A stretch of DNA of 64,000 bases from Butyrivibrio sp. VCB2006. Its GTDB lineage: Bacteria; Bacillota; Clostridia; Lachnospirales; Lachnospiraceae. This document shows positions 4,436 through 48,341 of the stretch, piece by piece; positions within the stretch are counted from its first letter, which is position 1; every line of letters starts with the position of its first letter. A program made the translations under genes and the position numbers. The stretch lies in contig NZ_ATVX01000001.1 in the NCBI RefSeq assembly GCF_000420945.1, positions 1 to 64,000 of the forward strand, in the 5' to 3' direction. The notes below the pieces were generated by a model that saw nothing but the letters and a program-made list of their open reading frames with translations, was not told the origin of the DNA and made no database searches.

Positions 4436-7468
<3,033 letters not shown>

Positions 7469-7534
7469 TCATAATTGTTACGCAGACAAATGCGGTAAAT
7501 ACATTTCACATTGGCCGATTTGCCCACAGGTTAC

Positions 7535-7546
7535 GTGCTCGAGCAC
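7535..7546. promoter_or_regulatory. 12-bp perfect palindrome, possible operator of the xylanase gene
   Basis: GTGCTCGAGCAC is a perfect dyad placed about 10 bp downstream of the likely minus-strand -10 box, a usual repressor position. It is GC-rich in an AT-rich region. The regulator is unknown. Confidence 0.35.
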
Positions 7547-7788
7547 CATCATTCTAGCAATTATACTTTGTAATAACTTCTTAATAATTGCTTAACAATT
7601 TGCACAATTTGCTATAATTATCAAATATTTACATACAAATATCAGAGTTTCCTGTAAATATAACAACTATGCGAAAAATATTACGAAAAATCAGCATCAG
7701 TTTTTTGTAAATTTGTGCATATAATCCAATTACTATCCATTGAATTTTAGTCTTTTTGAATAAAAATATTAAAATGTGATTTACCATG

Positions 7789-7816
7789 TAATTGTTTGGA
7801 ATGTGCTGACCGATAT
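7789..7816 (+). promoter_or_regulatory. Possible sigma-D (flagellar) type promoter
   Basis: TAAT at 7789-7792 and ACCGATAT at 7809-7816, 16 bp apart, resembling the TAAA-N15-GCCGATAA pattern of the motility sigma factor. It lies about 43 bp before the ATG at 7859. The -35 match is imperfect. Confidence 0.25.
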
Positions 7817-7858
7817 ATCATGTGGAAAAAAAGAAAAGTTGCCAAGGAGGATCTGTAA

Positions 7859-8218
7859 ATGGATTTTGGATTCTTAGCTTCAGCAAACAGCATTACAAAT
7901 AAATATCTTAATCAGTTATCATCTGAGAAAGCTCTTTCTCAGGTGCAATCCATAGACGATGATACCAAGAAAAAGTTTGGAAAAGAGTTTGAGGAAGCCT
8001 ATGATTCCATGATGGCTACCCGAGCTCTTAATGAGAGCATGCGTAGCAGCTACGAATTTAATCATCAGGATTCACTTAAAGATCACGCAACCAGACTTGG
8101 TTATTCAATAGACAATAGAGTGATAGATATGCTGCATATCCAGCTATCAGACGACATGAATGCAAAAGTAAATTCCGCAATGAACAGTGCAATAAAAGAA
8201 CTTGGCGAATCAATGTGA
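7859..8218 (+). CDS. Uncharacterised 119-residue protein
   Basis: I do not recognise this protein. It is soluble, with no signal peptide or membrane segment, rich in Ser, Asn, Met and charged residues, and predicted mostly helical by composition. A strong ribosome site (AAGGAGG) precedes the ATG at 7859. It stands alone, divergent from the xylanase and convergent with a CheY-like gene, and has a possible sigma-D-type promoter. That hints at a motility or chemotaxis link, but nothing in the protein itself shows one. Confidence 0.75.
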   Translation: MDFGFLASANSITNKYLNQLSSEKALSQVQSIDDDTKKKFGKEFEEAYDSMMATRALNESMRSSYEFNHQDSLKDHATRLGYSIDNRVIDMLHIQLSDDMNAKVNSAMNSAIKELGESM

Positions 8219-8232
8219 CACACAAAAAAATT

Positions 8233-8266
8233 AAGGGAAGTCTCTTATAGAGGCTTCCCTTTTTTG
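8233..8266. terminator. Bidirectional terminator between the 7859 gene and the CheY-like gene
   Basis: AAGGGAAG (8233-8240) pairs with CTTCCCTT (8254-8261); the stem extends through TCTC/GAGG with one wobble, loop TTATA, then T-rich to 8265. Both flanking genes end here. Confidence 0.85.
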
Positions 8267-8281
8267 ACGCGTGGGTAATAA

Positions 8282-8644
8282 TTATCCAATAGCTTTTTTA
8301 ACCGCTTCAAGAACACGATCTGCCTGGAATGGCTTAACGATGAAGTCCTTAGCGCCAGCCTGAATAGATTCAATTACCATTGCCTGCTGACCCATAGCAG
8401 AGCACATAATGCAAACTGCATTAGGATCTGCAGCCTTGATTCCCTTCAAGGCTCCGATACCATCAAGCTCGGGCATTGTGATATCAAGAGTAACAAGGTC
8501 GGGCTTCAACTCATTATACTTTTCGATTGCGACTTTACCGTTCTCAGCTTCGCCAGCAATCTCATATCCATTCTTGGAGAGGATATCCTTAAGCATCATG
8601 CGCATGAAAGCGGCGTCATCAGTAATGAGTACTCTTTTTCCCAT
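8282..8644 (-). CDS. cheY: CheY-like single-domain response regulator
   Basis: A 120-residue stand-alone receiver domain. The acidic pocket (D9, D10), phosphoacceptor D54 in LVTLDITMPELDG, S82 and K104 in the KPF motif are all present, so phosphorylation is expected. Family members of this size bind the flagellar switch or act as phosphate sinks or relays. The ATG at 8644 follows TTGGAGG. A minus-strand promoter TTGAAA-N17-TATGTA may lie 100 bp upstream. No kinase is adjacent; a CheR-type methyltransferase is encoded at 35206. Confidence 0.9.
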   Translation of the reverse strand: MGKRVLITDDAAFMRMMLKDILSKNGYEIAGEAENGKVAIEKYNELKPDLVTLDITMPELDGIGALKGIKAADPNAVCIMCSAMGQQAMVIESIQAGAKDFIVKPFQADRVLEAVKKAIG

Positions 8645-44028: not shown

Positions 44029-44056
44029 TTGCTTTTTCATTCTCTTTCTGTATAAT
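44029..44056 (+). promoter_or_regulatory. Promoter of the coiled-coil/CobW locus
   Basis: TTGCTT at 44029-44034, 16-bp spacer, TATAAT at 44051-44056. It predicts a leader of about 150 nt before the ATG at 44216. Confidence 0.55.
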
Positions 44057-44063
44057 GAATTTT

Positions 44064-44201
44064 CGTCGGCATTCTGCTGACAAATAGTCACGAGAAATCT
44101 CTCGATGACGATTCCACATTTAATTATTTATAGTATGCGTCAAAGGGCTACTATTGGGATATCATTTCGTCTCTTTTTGTGCTCTTTTGTGCGCAAAAGA
44201 G
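44064..44201 (+). promoter_or_regulatory. Structured 5' leader with three hairpins
   Basis: The leader before the 44216 gene can form GTCGGC/GCTGAC, CGAGA/TCTCG and, directly before the ribosome site, a perfect CTCTTTTG-TGCG-CAAAAGAG stem (44182-44189 with 44194-44201). The AAGGGAG ribosome site follows at once. No known riboswitch class is recognised. Control of translation by this fold is only a possibility. Confidence 0.4.
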
Positions 44202-44215
44202 AAAGGGAGAAAGAA

Positions 44216-45934
44216 ATGAAGCTGTTTATGAAGAAAGAAAAAGGAACTAATTCTGTAAAAGATCTGCTTAAAAAGCTTAAGAGGCATGACACAAAGGTTG
44301 TGGCTATTGCTGTAATTATTGCTCTTGTTTTAAGCGGAGGACTGATCTACATCAGTACACCTATTGTTGCAGAAAATGCGACAGAAGGACTGGCTGAGAG
44401 TGAGAGACTTGCTAACCAGGATACTGTAGATAAGCTTGGCGAAATCGGTGAGTACTTAAGTGAACTTGATAAAGTTGTTACAAGTAATCAGGAGAGCCTT
44501 AATTCAATAAATGAGAGGTCTGATTCCGAAAACTCTGAGGCAACAAGTGCTATTAGTGAGAAGGTAATCGGCATTGACAGTAAACTTAAGGAAGTACACA
44601 CAAACATCGATGGAACTACCACTAAGATTGAGAATCTGAAAACTATTATTGAAAAAGGTGATTCAGATAATAAAGAACAGATTGAAAAGGAATTCACTGT
44701 AATTAATGCTGATCTTGACAGCATCAAGTCAGATTACGACAGTGCACAGAGCCAGATCAAGGAGCTTATGGATAAGCTTCAGAAAGAAATTGACTCAGGA
44801 AATAAGCAGCTTGATGAGAAGGCTGCCGACAATCATAAGGCTCTTTTGAATGAGCTTTCTTCTATGAACAAAAGCATGGATGAAAAGAGCTCCAAGTCCA
44901 TCGCTACTTTTCAGGAAGATATTTCTGCTCTCGGCATGAGCGTTACTAAAAAACTTGATGATTACCAGAACACAATGAACAACAATATTGAAGAAGTTAA
45001 CAATAATGTGAATAACAACTTTAACAATATCAACAAGTCTGTTGGCGATGGCTTTGGCGATTTGAAGAGCTATATAGATTCCTCAGCTAAGAACATCAAT
45101 GATAAACTTGACCTGGTTTTTCAGCGTGTGAGTGACGGTAAAAAGAAATTAGTATCCACGTTACTCACTTACGGAATTTCCGTTAAAGAGGATGCTAAAT
45201 TTGATGACATTAATAATGGAATCATAGAACTTGGAGACAAAATGCGTGATGCTGAAAGAAAAATAGAAGATAGCGAGCATTCCGTAACTCCTGAAAAGAT
45301 ACTTGCCGGACAGACAGTCACAGTAAATGACCAGACTATTACCGGTACAGCAACCAGTGATGCGTCATGCCTTTCTGATCACATTTTATCCGGACAGACC
45401 GCCTATGTTAATGGCGCAATGGTAATAGGAACAATGGCAAATCATGGATCTGTTAATATAGCGTTATCAAAAGACAATCGTTCACAGTCACTGGAAGCCG
45501 GATACTATGATTCCATTACAGTAACTGCAGATATTTCCAGTCTGCCTGCAAATATTACATATACTCATCATGTCCACAGTAATTCTGCCACAGATAAGAC
45601 TGTTGTTGATACTTCTTTTTCATCCGGAAAGGCTTATGGCGGAGATACCAGTTCATCTAAGGGAGGCTGCTTTAATGAACCTATTTATGGTCCTTGCGGT
45701 GGAAGCGGAGAAGCACTTTATGAAGATTATGGTGGATACTACTATGATTATGATGGGGATGGTCAGCTTGATCAAAATGTATTTCATTATGGCTTTTGTA
45801 CTACCTGCGGCGGAAGAGTAGATGCGGGTGGCTATGGACAAATCGGAAGATGCGATAATCAGCGAGTAATTGGATATAAAGCATCCTGCGGAAAGGTTTC
45901 GGGACAGGTTATTGCAGCAGAAGTTACGTACTAA
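44216..45934 (+). CDS. Membrane-anchored coiled-coil protein with phage-tail-like repeats
   Basis: I do not know this gene's function. From ATG 44216 (after AAGGGAG), 572 residues: basic N-terminus, one transmembrane helix (about 27-48), a long coiled coil (about 60-300, rich in Asp, Lys, Ser and Asn), then a module like those in phage tail fibres. Residues 310-340 (STLLTYGISVKEDAKFDDI) match the 'GV..ADATF..MA' pattern, and 361-408 hold two repeats of ILxGQTxxVNxxxIxGT. The C-terminal 95 residues are Gly/Tyr-rich with C485, C494, C528, C531, C546 and C558 (CTTCGGR) and a DYDGDGQLD acidic loop. Probably a surface stalk. It heads the CobW locus. Confidence 0.8.
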   Translation: MKLFMKKEKGTNSVKDLLKKLKRHDTKVVAIAVIIALVLSGGLIYISTPIVAENATEGLAESERLANQDTVDKLGEIGEYLSELDKVVTSNQESLNSINERSDSENSEATSAISEKVIGIDSKLKEVHTNIDGTTTKIENLKTIIEKGDSDNKEQIEKEFTVINADLDSIKSDYDSAQSQIKELMDKLQKEIDSGNKQLDEKAADNHKALLNELSSMNKSMDEKSSKSIATFQEDISALGMSVTKKLDDYQNTMNNNIEEVNNNVNNNFNNINKSVGDGFGDLKSYIDSSAKNINDKLDLVFQRVSDGKKKLVSTLLTYGISVKEDAKFDDINNGIIELGDKMRDAERKIEDSEHSVTPEKILAGQTVTVNDQTITGTATSDASCLSDHILSGQTAYVNGAMVIGTMANHGSVNIALSKDNRSQSLEAGYYDSITVTADISSLPANITYTHHVHSNSATDKTVVDTSFSSGKAYGGDTSSSKGGCFNEPIYGPCGGSGEALYEDYGGYYYDYDGDGQLDQNVFHYGFCTTCGGRVDAGGYGQIGRCDNQRVIGYKASCGKVSGQVIAAEVTY

Positions 45935-45937
45935 TGC

Positions 45938-46033
45938 ATGAAAGCGGCATTCTTGACATTATGTTTGTCTGTGCTTACAATGATGGTTGTTGTAGTGTAT
46001 ATAGCACAGATATGTGCAGAATGGAGCGAATAA
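45938..46033 (+). CDS. Candidate 31-residue membrane peptide, translationally coupled
   Basis: ATG at 45938 lies 3 bp after the stop of the coiled-coil gene and its own stop (46031-46033) abuts the ATG of the CobW gene (TAAATG). The peptide starts MKAAFLTLCLSVLTMM, continues with a Val-rich hydrophobic core and ends AEWSE, so it would be a single transmembrane helix. There is no ribosome site of its own, so translation would depend on re-initiation from the upstream gene. The CobW ribosome site (GGAG, 46023-46026) lies inside it. It may be only a spacer; the exact fit favours a real gene. Confidence 0.5.
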   Translation: MKAAFLTLCLSVLTMMVVVVYIAQICAEWSE

Positions 46034-47314
46034 ATGACCAAGATTGATATTATTTCAGGCTTCTTGGGAGCTGGTAAGACAACTCTTATCAAGAAGCTTT
46101 TAAAAGAAGCATTAAATGGAACAAAGGTGGTTCTTATTGAAAATGAGTTCGGAGAGATTGGTATTGACGGAGGTTTCCTTAAGGAAGCCGGAATCGAAAT
46201 CACAGAGATGAATTCAGGTTGTATTTGCTGCTCACTTGTTGGAGATTTCGAGACATCTCTTCAGCAGGTTATGGATCAGTATGAACCTGAGCGTATTCTT
46301 ATCGAGCCATCAGGTGTAGGTAAGCTTTCTGATGTTATGAGAGCCATCCAGAATATTGCAGAAGGTTCAGCAAATATGGAACTTAACAGCGCTGTAACTG
46401 TTGTTGATGTTTCCAAGGCAAAGGTATATATCAAGAACTTTGGTGAGTTCTTTATTAATCAGATTGAGAATGCCGGAACTGTTATTCTTACAAGAACAGA
46501 CAAGGCTGATCAGAAGAAGATTGAGGATGCCGTAGAGCTTATTCGTCAGCACAATGCGAAGGCTACTATTATCACAACTCCTCTTGATCAGATTACAGGT
46601 AAAGAGATCCTGGATACTTTCGAGGGTAACAATGACCTTGAGGCAGAGCTTCTTAAGCAGGTAATGGAAGAGGAAGAACATCATCACCATCATCATCACG
46701 ATCATGGCAGCCACAAGGTTGTTAACGAAGATGGTTCAGTAGTATACAAGGCACATCACGATGAAGATGAGTGCGATGACGAGGAGTGCAGCTGTCATCA
46801 CCACCATCATGACCATGACGACGATGACCACGACGAGCACGAGCATCATCATCACCACCATGATCATGACGACGATGATCACGATGAGCATGAGCATCAT
46901 CACCACCATCATGACCACGACGACGATGATCACGATGAGCATGAGCACCACCATCATCATGACCATGACGAGGACGACCATGATGAACATGAACATCATC
47001 ATCACCATCATGATCACGACCATGATCACGCAGCTCACGATGTATTTGTTAGCTGGGGTATGGAGACACCTCTTAAGTACACCAAGGAAGAAATCGAGAA
47101 GATGCTTGGACAGCTTGAGGACGAGGAGAGATTCGGTATCGTTCTTCGTACAAAGGGTGTTGTTCCTACAGCAGATGGTCAGTGGATTGAATTCGACTAT
47201 GTTCCCGGAGAAGCAGATGTAAGAAATGGCGCCGCAGATGTAACAGGTAAGTTCTGCGTAATCGGGTCACAGCTTAAGGAAGAGAATCTAGAGAAGCTTT
47301 TCAGAAGACTGTAA
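46034..47314 (+). CDS. CobW/COG0523 GTPase with a giant His-rich insert
   Basis: 426 residues. N-terminal G3E GTPase domain: Walker A GFLGAGKTT (9-17), ENEFGEIGID, the metal-binding CICC (63-66), and IEPSGVG. Residues about 216-335 are a low-complexity His/Asp/Glu insert with more than 50 His, mostly in five repeats of about 17 residues (HHHHHHDHDDDDHDEHE), with a CDDEECSC segment before them. The C-terminal CobW domain (about 340-426) follows. COG0523 GTPases deliver Zn, Ni or cobalt to client proteins; the insert should store or buffer metal. Which metal cannot be read from the sequence. Confidence 0.92.
   Translation: MTKIDIISGFLGAGKTTLIKKLLKEALNGTKVVLIENEFGEIGIDGGFLKEAGIEITEMNSGCICCSLVGDFETSLQQVMDQYEPERILIEPSGVGKLSDVMRAIQNIAEGSANMELNSAVTVVDVSKAKVYIKNFGEFFINQIENAGTVILTRTDKADQKKIEDAVELIRQHNAKATIITTPLDQITGKEILDTFEGNNDLEAELLKQVMEEEEHHHHHHHDHGSHKVVNEDGSVVYKAHHDEDECDDEECSCHHHHHDHDDDDHDEHEHHHHHHDHDDDDHDEHEHHHHHHDHDDDDHDEHEHHHHHDHDEDDHDEHEHHHHHHDHDHDHAAHDVFVSWGMETPLKYTKEEIEKMLGQLEDEERFGIVLRTKGVVPTADGQWIEFDYVPGEADVRNGAADVTGKFCVIGSQLKEENLEKLFRRL
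46793..47037 (+). repeat. 51-bp in-frame tandem repeat encoding the His-rich insert
   Basis: Five successive units, of which three are full-length or nearly so, 17 codons (51 bp) each and two a codon shorter, built almost only of CAT/CAC, GAT/GAC and GAG codons. Synonymous CAT/CAC changes between units show that the protein repeat is kept while the DNA drifts. Such repeats can change unit number by slippage or recombination. Confidence 0.85.
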
Positions 47315-47369: not shown

Positions 47370-47399
47370 TCGGTGTTTTATATGATTAGGAGAGTCAAA

Positions 47400-48341
47400 T
47401 TGAAACCAGTATATATAATTAACGGATTTCTTGACAGCGGCAAGACAGATTTCTTCCGCTACACAATTGCACAGCAATATTTCAGAACAAAGGGCAAGAC
47501 ACTTCTCATTGTTTGTGAGGATGGCGAAAATGATTACGAGGAGAAGCTCCTTAAGTCAACTAATACAGTAGTAGAGAGAATCGAGGATGAAGAGGACTTT
47601 AATCCTGATGCTCTTGTAGCTCTTGATTCCAAGCACAATCCAGAGCGTATTCTTGTTGAGTACAACGGTATGTGGAACTTCAAGAACATGAGACTTCCAG
47701 TAATGTGGAATCTTGAGCAGCAGATTACAGTTATTGATGCTTCCAGCTTTGAGCTGTATTTCAATAATATGAAGTCACTTCTTGCTGAGCAGATTCGTAA
47801 TTCAGATCTGATTCTTTTCAACAGATGTGATGGAATTGAGGACCTTGCTTCTTATAAGAGAAATGTTAAGGCTATTAACCAGAAGGCTGATATTATCTTT
47901 GAGGACAAGAATGGTGAGGTTGATGTAACTCTTGATGAGGATCTTCCATTTGATCTTAATGCTAACCCTATAGATCTTAACAACTACGGTTATGGAATGT
48001 TCTACCTTGATGCTCTAGACCATGTTGAGAGATATGAGGGCAAGACAGTTAGATTTAAGGGTATGGTGCTCAAGCCTGAAGAATTCCCTGAGAACAGATT
48101 TGTTCCGGGAAGAATGGCTATGACTTGCTGCGCACAGGATATGCAGTTTCTTGGCTTTGCTTGTGAATACGAAGACACTAAGTCTTTAGTAGAAAAAGAC
48201 TGGGTTCTTGTAACTGCCAAGGTTGTAAAAGAGTATGTGGCTGAATATCAGGGTGAGGGCCCTGTTCTTAAGGCTATTTCTGTAGAGAAGACAAACGCAC
48301 CTGACAATCAGGTTATAGATTTCTCTAATCCGGAACAGTAA
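47400..48341 (+). CDS. CobW-like GTPase with a DUF1980-like C-terminal domain
   Basis: 313 residues from the TTG at 47400, 8 nt after AGGAG. The Walker A GFLDSGKTD (9-17) and guanine-specificity-like NRCD place it in the G3E/CobW group, but the CxCC metal motif is missing. From about residue 205 the sequence reads RFKGMVLKPEEFPENRF and RMAMTCCAQDMQFLGFACE, like the C-terminal part of TIGR03943/DUF1980 proteins, which usually act with a separate permease. The two appear fused here. It follows the His-rich CobW gene and precedes a membrane protein gene, suggesting one pathway. Confidence 0.8.
   Translation: MKPVYIINGFLDSGKTDFFRYTIAQQYFRTKGKTLLIVCEDGENDYEEKLLKSTNTVVERIEDEEDFNPDALVALDSKHNPERILVEYNGMWNFKNMRLPVMWNLEQQITVIDASSFELYFNNMKSLLAEQIRNSDLILFNRCDGIEDLASYKRNVKAINQKADIIFEDKNGEVDVTLDEDLPFDLNANPIDLNNYGYGMFYLDALDHVERYEGKTVRFKGMVLKPEEFPENRFVPGRMAMTCCAQDMQFLGFACEYEDTKSLVEKDWVLVTAKVVKEYVAEYQGEGPVLKAISVEKTNAPDNQVIDFSNPEQ

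Follow-up and report, generated by a model that had tools for sequence, protein, structure and literature searches.

A membrane-anchored stalk protein with phage-tail-like pieces, a conserved His/Cys tip and a covarying two-hairpin RNA leader in Butyrivibrio

The stretch of DNA analysed here (the window) is 64,000 nucleotides long and comes from Butyrivibrio sp. VCB2006; its ORF at 44216-45934 (+) translates into a 572-amino-acid membrane-anchored stalk protein with homologues throughout much of the genus. The ORF finder places the start of this gene at 44105; ATG 44216 is taken as the start because alignments with homologues begin there and because 44105 lies within an RNA leader. Reading the translation from its Lys/Arg-rich N-terminus, one finds a single hydrophobic helix (44297-44359, +; approximately residues 28-48), for which an N-in, C-out orientation is expected. 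There follows a coiled-coil-like stalk (44378-45100, +) whose length is highly variable across species, and which draws many weak, unspecific matches to coiled-coil families (Pfam and NCBIfam yield for the whole protein only coiled-coil-type noise below their cut-offs). Beyond it lie a tail-fibre-like segment, VFQRVSDGK..DAKFDDI (45101-45235, +; residues 296-340), which aligns with members of the genus and with tail proteins, two phage-tail-like ILxGQTxxVNxxxIxGT repeats (45281-45517, +), which contain one Cys, and a tip domain (45551-45931, +) with six further Cys and a DYDGDG loop. These parts, and the membrane-anchored stalk that they compose, had been read from the DNA in a first-pass annotation, and all of them are present in the 572-residue translation.

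The window protein is an atypical member of its family. In the usual layout a conserved basic N-terminus and transmembrane helix are followed by the coiled coil of highly variable length, by a segment of the form VSNGKKLLASALLTKGV..EDATF..I..AI, by the tip and, in most members, by a long acidic tail; most relatives have that tail and lack the ILxGQT repeats, which are confined to a few members (the window, G080 and G063, with a similar element in L166). The nearest relatives of the window protein, L165 (on the same contig as L202) and the G063 homologue (L203), share with it the placement of the repeats between segment and tip and the loss of the second HxH motif of the tip. The window and L165 proteins stop directly after the tip; the L203 ORF (7622-9436) ends early within it, after a DVDGDG loop.

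Matches to the stalk protein are found in 34 of 36 same-genus genomes and in one of 24 other genomes of the order, there only over residues 374-469; the N-terminal 61 residues are matched in 58 of 79 genus genomes, the source genome counted. The gene is thus present in most of the genomes searched of Butyrivibrio, a major rumen genus. Directly downstream in the window lies CobW1 (46034-47314, +), a CobW/COG0523-like GTPase with a GCICC motif and a long His-rich stretch (NCBIfam CobW-type models match at E 1e-22 to 1e-26 without reaching their cut-offs), and then CobW2 (47373-48341, +), which joins a CobW-like N-terminus to a C-terminus resembling TIGR03943 permease subunits (87.6 bits against a cut-off of 88.8). 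The association with CobW genes, to which the first-pass annotation had pointed, recurs among the homologues: in 30 of 32 loci examined (from the 34 matching genomes, less G002 and G003) the stalk gene stands directly upstream of the pair and on the same strand as CobW1. The two exceptions are L051, with CobW1 elsewhere, and L057, at a contig end. Alignment A1 comprises 27 of these 32 stalk loci, L037 (missed by the pattern), L044 (N-masked), L052 and L056 (divergent) and L057 (no tip) being left out; A2 also omits the near-duplicates L035, L040 and L042. A close CobW1 orthologue, 70-77% identical in the best piece, is found in eight of nine genomes that lack a stalk match. Seven of these eight neighbourhoods (all except G091) were viewed by eye: in G094 and G097 CobW1 is adjacent or close to a diverged stalk or tip gene, and in G025, G061 and G062 no stalk gene is seen beside the close CobW1, which counts against the interpretation favoured below. 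In G081 and G086 (L199 2993-4633, L200 1828-3426) another protein, which resembles the stalk in its basic N-terminus and transmembrane helix, is encoded upstream of CobW1.

Between the stalk gene and cobW1 lies a promoter-like site, TTGACA-17-TACAAT, with a conserved 5' block, TTGTAGTGNNTATAGCACAG (together 45953-46009, +; found by promoter scan and comparison of the gaps). That cobW1 has a promoter-like site of its own likewise counts against the interpretation favoured below. Between the TTGTAGTGNNTATAGCACAG block, noted at 45990-46009, and the ribosome site lies a small hairpin. Each of the six genomes searched has a single copy of the block at 0-1 mismatch; the notion that it marks a regulon was dropped, with 33 matches at up to 3 mismatches against 27 for a reversed-pattern control. 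A small ORF in the same gap (45938-46033) was likewise rejected as a gene, its peptide not being conserved in 25 gaps compared.

The most constant features of the family are the presumptive ligands of its tip, which has the near-invariant signature HxH...GGC...HxH...C...CxxC...C...C. Among 42 aligned members (alignment A7, drawn from 70 loci; L138 was left out for an in-frame stop, others for brevity or partial match), H62, H64, C85, C98 and C188 are found in all 42, H92, H94 and C174 in 41, C132 in 39, C135 in 37 and H146 in 33. Such a conserved His/Cys set is what a zinc-binding domain would be expected to have, and weak zinc-ribbon and zinc-finger profile matches fall around the CxxC. The window tip is a reduced variant, keeping HVH, GGC, CTTC, GRC and ASC, with the second HxH lost; which of its cysteines corresponds to C98 varies with the alignment used. 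AlphaFold2 models the usual form of the tip confidently (block mean pLDDT 93-97 over residues 61-190; overall pTM 0.54), and Foldseek finds for this canonical model no PDB or BFVD match at E <= 0.001, the best five BFVD rows lying at E 0.0055 to 0.09 with rmsd 22-30 and TM-scores near 0.2. The window's own tip, besides lacking the second HxH, is modelled poorly (pLDDT 64.4); both points, like the absence of a homologue from the PDB and BFVD searches, count against the interpretation favoured below. The metal-type tip surmised in the first-pass annotation has the near-invariant ligands on its side, and a confident predicted structure for the usual form of the tip. From its sequence the tip is predicted to bind metal, probably zinc, which is preferred on account of the His/Cys ligands and the CobW neighbours. 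The cysteines could form disulfides instead of holding metal; the host is a strict anaerobe, so they may stay reduced.

The middle of the protein has a different affinity. The window repeats match PHROG 13589 (E 5e-11) and PHROG 38337 (E 2.6e-6) and are thus not a chance resemblance; they also match three phage records, one of the matches having tail, holin and endolysin genes within a few genes of it. Conservation of the helical segment extends across the genus and to tail proteins, and the sequence match to tail-fibre families is limited to approximately residues 296-434. Of the 70 stalk loci, 33 lie outside the Butyrivibrio-type group, in Eisenbergiella, Kineothrix, other Lachnospiraceae and Clostridia; two of these, L168 and L169, share with the family only the segment (L169 the repeats too). 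L169 stands among tail sheath, tail and baseplate genes (five neighbours, best PHROG matches E 4e-36 to 1e-89); it matches PHROG 38337 (E 4e-22), PHROG 13589 (E 5e-20) and tail fibre PHROG 26419 (E 1.4e-7), and its segment and repeats align with the window protein at E 5e-10. The family segment also aligns with L168 (52% over 42 aa), which has a tail-type gene some kilobases away. The tip behaves otherwise. It was not found in the phage records searched (tblastn with the tips of L039, L166, L141 and L109), the C-terminal part of the window protein has no match in viral contigs (phage records giving repeat matches only, in the three cases mentioned), and the canonical model has no match in BFVD at E <= 0.001. 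A tail origin of the tip was therefore rejected. The one exception came from a scan of viral contigs with the tip alignment: L170, in which an ORF (6171-8564) joins a tape-measure N-terminus to stalk segment and tip, on a contig that also carries a tail sheath gene. As a single contig of 9,881 bases, this may be a real fusion or an assembly chimera.

A phage tail module recruited to a cell-surface stalk, as the first-pass annotation had it, is thus supported by these sequence comparisons for the middle of the protein and not for the tip. The same annotation had seen no other phage gene nearby, which holds for the ORFs read at about 38-53 kb of the window (the neighbours being genes that we take to be Rnf, rpsT, lepA and hemN), and homologues are not confined to prophages: with the exception of L170, the Butyrivibrio-type copies occupy a syntenic locus that keeps the window's non-phage neighbours. 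A tail-fibre fold was not recognised. Both models give the segment two helices (pLDDT 58-68 in the canonical model, 86-91 in the window model), and the repeats stand at a low pLDDT of 37-62 in the window model.

What is new here is the RNA leader at the start of the stalk mRNA, which has two covarying hairpins and no counterpart in Rfam. A probable sigma-A-type promoter, TTGCTT, 16 nt, TATAAT (44029-44056, +), was recognised by eye; the promoter scan does not list it, which we attribute to its weak first hexamer, and a TATAAT-like box is kept at its position in stalk homologues. Directly after the box come a GUCGG-type hairpin 1, a hairpin 2 and UUCCAC in the homologues. In the window the leader spans 44063-44119 (+), with hairpin 1, GUCGGC-AUUCU-GCUGAC, at 44065-44081 (+) and hairpin 2, with a bulged A, at 44088-44108 (+), each delineated by folding and covariation. 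Its predicted fold has a z score of -4.62; three other full leaders range from -1.9 to -3.8, and the diverged L049 leader stands at -2.0. In the 20 leaders of alignment A4, from which model R1 was built (out of 32 in A3, diverged ones and one near-duplicate being left out), 96.1% of the cells are paired, with changes on both sides in 8 of the 14 pairs, against at most 62.4% and 3 pairs in slid controls, the structure itself having been derived from such sequences. In 22 further leaders, outside model building and aligned to the model, 95.6% pair and 13 of 14 pairs change on both sides, against at most 55.2% and 4 pairs in slid controls. The number of further pair types is no higher than in shuffles, 190 and 222 out of 500 of which attain it; the shuffles ignore relatedness. 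Comparison with Rfam gave no match reaching a curated or plausible score; the matches that appeared are far below gathering scores and were taken as chance.

The leader keeps company with the stalk gene. Of 58 stalk genomes, 56 have it on the strand of the gene and no more than 400 nt upstream (36 of 38 without the 20 that trained the model), and the two misses, G027 and G028, carry a diverged leader by eye. The stalk leader is the only strong R1 match in its own genome (the window being among the model's 20 sequences), the others there (E 0.09 or worse) having been rejected as chance by their context, and 64 of 79 genus genomes have some R1 match at E <= 0.05. At the non-Butyrivibrio stalks the leader was not found. 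Among 295 order-level genomes 16 have an R1 match, 8 of them outside the genus; these eight places look like chance, and although they exceed the roughly one expected, the E-values are rough. The convincing matches of this wider set are all within the genus. With a conserved, structured and covarying leader, the stalk mRNA has one hallmark of riboswitch-bearing mRNAs; no expression platform was identified in it. The leader probably sets stalk expression; alternatively, it would be a simple mRNA-stabilising 5' structure.

From these facts about the stalk locus we draw a composite interpretation, to which we give about an even chance: a type II membrane-anchored surface stalk, with a tip that folds around a metal, most likely Zn(II), and serves as an adhesin, and with a leader that probably sets its expression. 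The Lys/Arg-rich N-terminus would stay inside and the one helix would cross the membrane; an oligomeric coiled coil of variable length would reach through the cell wall, bearing the tail-fibre-like collar and a compact tip; and the tip, folded around its metal by way of the conserved HxH/Cys ligands, would make the cell adhere to another cell or to a surface. The dedicated two-hairpin leader with which the mRNA begins would set the level of expression, and the adjacent pair of CobW proteins, cytoplasmic metal GTPases, would tie the locus to zinc status (PMC2770081 and PMC7895991 link members of COG0523 to zinc). Adhesion is suggested by the architecture, by the variable length of the stalk and by relatives in conjugative elements, Gram-positive examples of which often rely on surface adhesins (PMC10588982). 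That the genus keeps the architecture while stalk length varies speaks for a surface stalk; that some members (L162, L163, L057) have no recognisable tip speaks against a zinc-tip adhesin.

The strong synteny with two CobW-like genes, the near-invariance of the tip ligands and the permease-subunit-like domain of CobW2 could instead be read as the marks of a surface zinc scavenger, store or sensor that feeds the CobW pair, with adhesion secondary. We consider this unlikely. CobW proteins are expected in the cytoplasm, no zinc transporter gene was identified by eye beside the pair in the window, and the window variant makes do with fewer ligands; a long variable stalk and a tail-like collar are unnecessary for scavenging. 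Moreover, members in other genera have no CobW gene within up to 9 kb, except for a CobW2 fragment approximately 8 kb away in L159.

The stalk might also descend from a conjugation surface protein, a mating-pair adhesin of integrative elements, and have kept a role in cell-cell contact, which we judge rather improbable. Two or more of 13 conjugative-element markers (among them what we take to be DUF5688, ArdC and PrimPol) are matched at seven of the 33 outside loci (L134, L137, L141, L162-L164, L166), and Pfam identifies TraG/VirB4, CD1107-like, topoisomerase, MobL and MobA-type relaxase neighbours in the four loci tested. Against this, the marker queries came from L134, L137, L141 and L166, whose matches are therefore partly self-matches; 26 of the 33 fall below two markers, though some loci are short (single markers were left uncounted: TopB in L135, L139, L142 and L148, DUF5688 in L146); one of the 37 Butyrivibrio-type loci, L133, has a marker match, to one marker; and L162 and L163 stand beside relaxase genes but lack the tip. 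The window stalk is not within a conjugative element, judging from the neighbouring ORFs, and plasmid records searched with L137 gave no match. Least probable is that the stalk belongs to a phage-tail-like machine or is what remains of a prophage. The tail-like segments and the L170 contig, with its sheath gene and tape-measure/stalk/tip ORF, would suit such an origin; the reading is largely disfavoured by the 30 of 32 Butyrivibrio-type loci that share identical non-phage neighbours and by the conservation of membrane anchor and leader, and L170 itself is the possible chimera noted above.

The surface stalk that we favour has partial likenesses among known systems. Clostridial phage tail-fibre-type proteins (PHROG 26419, 17334 and 35286; repeats 13589 and 38337) share a VFQSVSDGK...DATF segment and ILxGxT repeats with it; unlike the stalk they have no transmembrane anchor, do not lie beside CobW genes and, in the phage records searched, have no His/Cys tip. 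PblA/PblB-type proteins, which are of prophage tail origin, are by description alike in placing a tail-type protein on the cell surface, and differ in being phage-encoded; PMC4508584 and PMC2920869 present them as streptococcal surface adhesins. PrgB-type conjugation adhesins, as PMC10588982 describes them, are likewise surface proteins, in their case of Gram-positive conjugative elements. COG0523/CobW zinc-linked loci have a CobW protein with a His stretch and a metal link in common with the locus analysed here; a surface stalk as CobW neighbour goes unmentioned in the passages of PMC2770081 that were consulted. Among the matches listed in a literature search, titles and the beginnings of abstracts contain nothing on the stalk protein or its leader. 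What emerges is an apparently unstudied surface system, present in most of the genus, in which a stalk of the cell membrane bears phage-tail-like pieces and has relatives that conjugative elements carry as well. It is now open to experiment: the tip is a confidently predicted domain for which the searched libraries gave no fold match, the covarying leader offers an RNA absent from Rfam, and cultured Butyrivibrio species such as B. hungatei DSM 14810 (locus L109) allow both to be tested.

A bolder proposal is a long shot: that the leader is a regulatory RNA, so far unrecognised, which senses a metal or a protein and switches on a stalk with a new zinc-binding tip fold, so that stalk and CobW pair form one surface-to-cytoplasm zinc system. 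If that were true, a small regulon would result, since three PD-(D/E)XK (Rpn-like) genes have a leader of this type upstream; a shared regulator of stalk and PD-(D/E)XK genes acting via the leader is possible. Away from stalk N-termini lie 32 of the at least 88 leader matches listed, and 17 of these were read in context: two stand upstream of diverged stalks (G008, G090), three upstream of PD-(D/E)XK family genes (G001, G084, G093), one, at the end of a contig, has the G093 sequence again, and 11 are apparent chance. Three of 22 PF12784 loci (8 genomes) have a leader match at E <= 0.001. Stalk-like leaders stand directly upstream of PD-(D/E)XK genes at L208 263-330, L209 301-368 and L218 1780-1830, and a few other genes of this family (L222, L236, L237) have, by eye, tandem hairpins with UC-containing loops.
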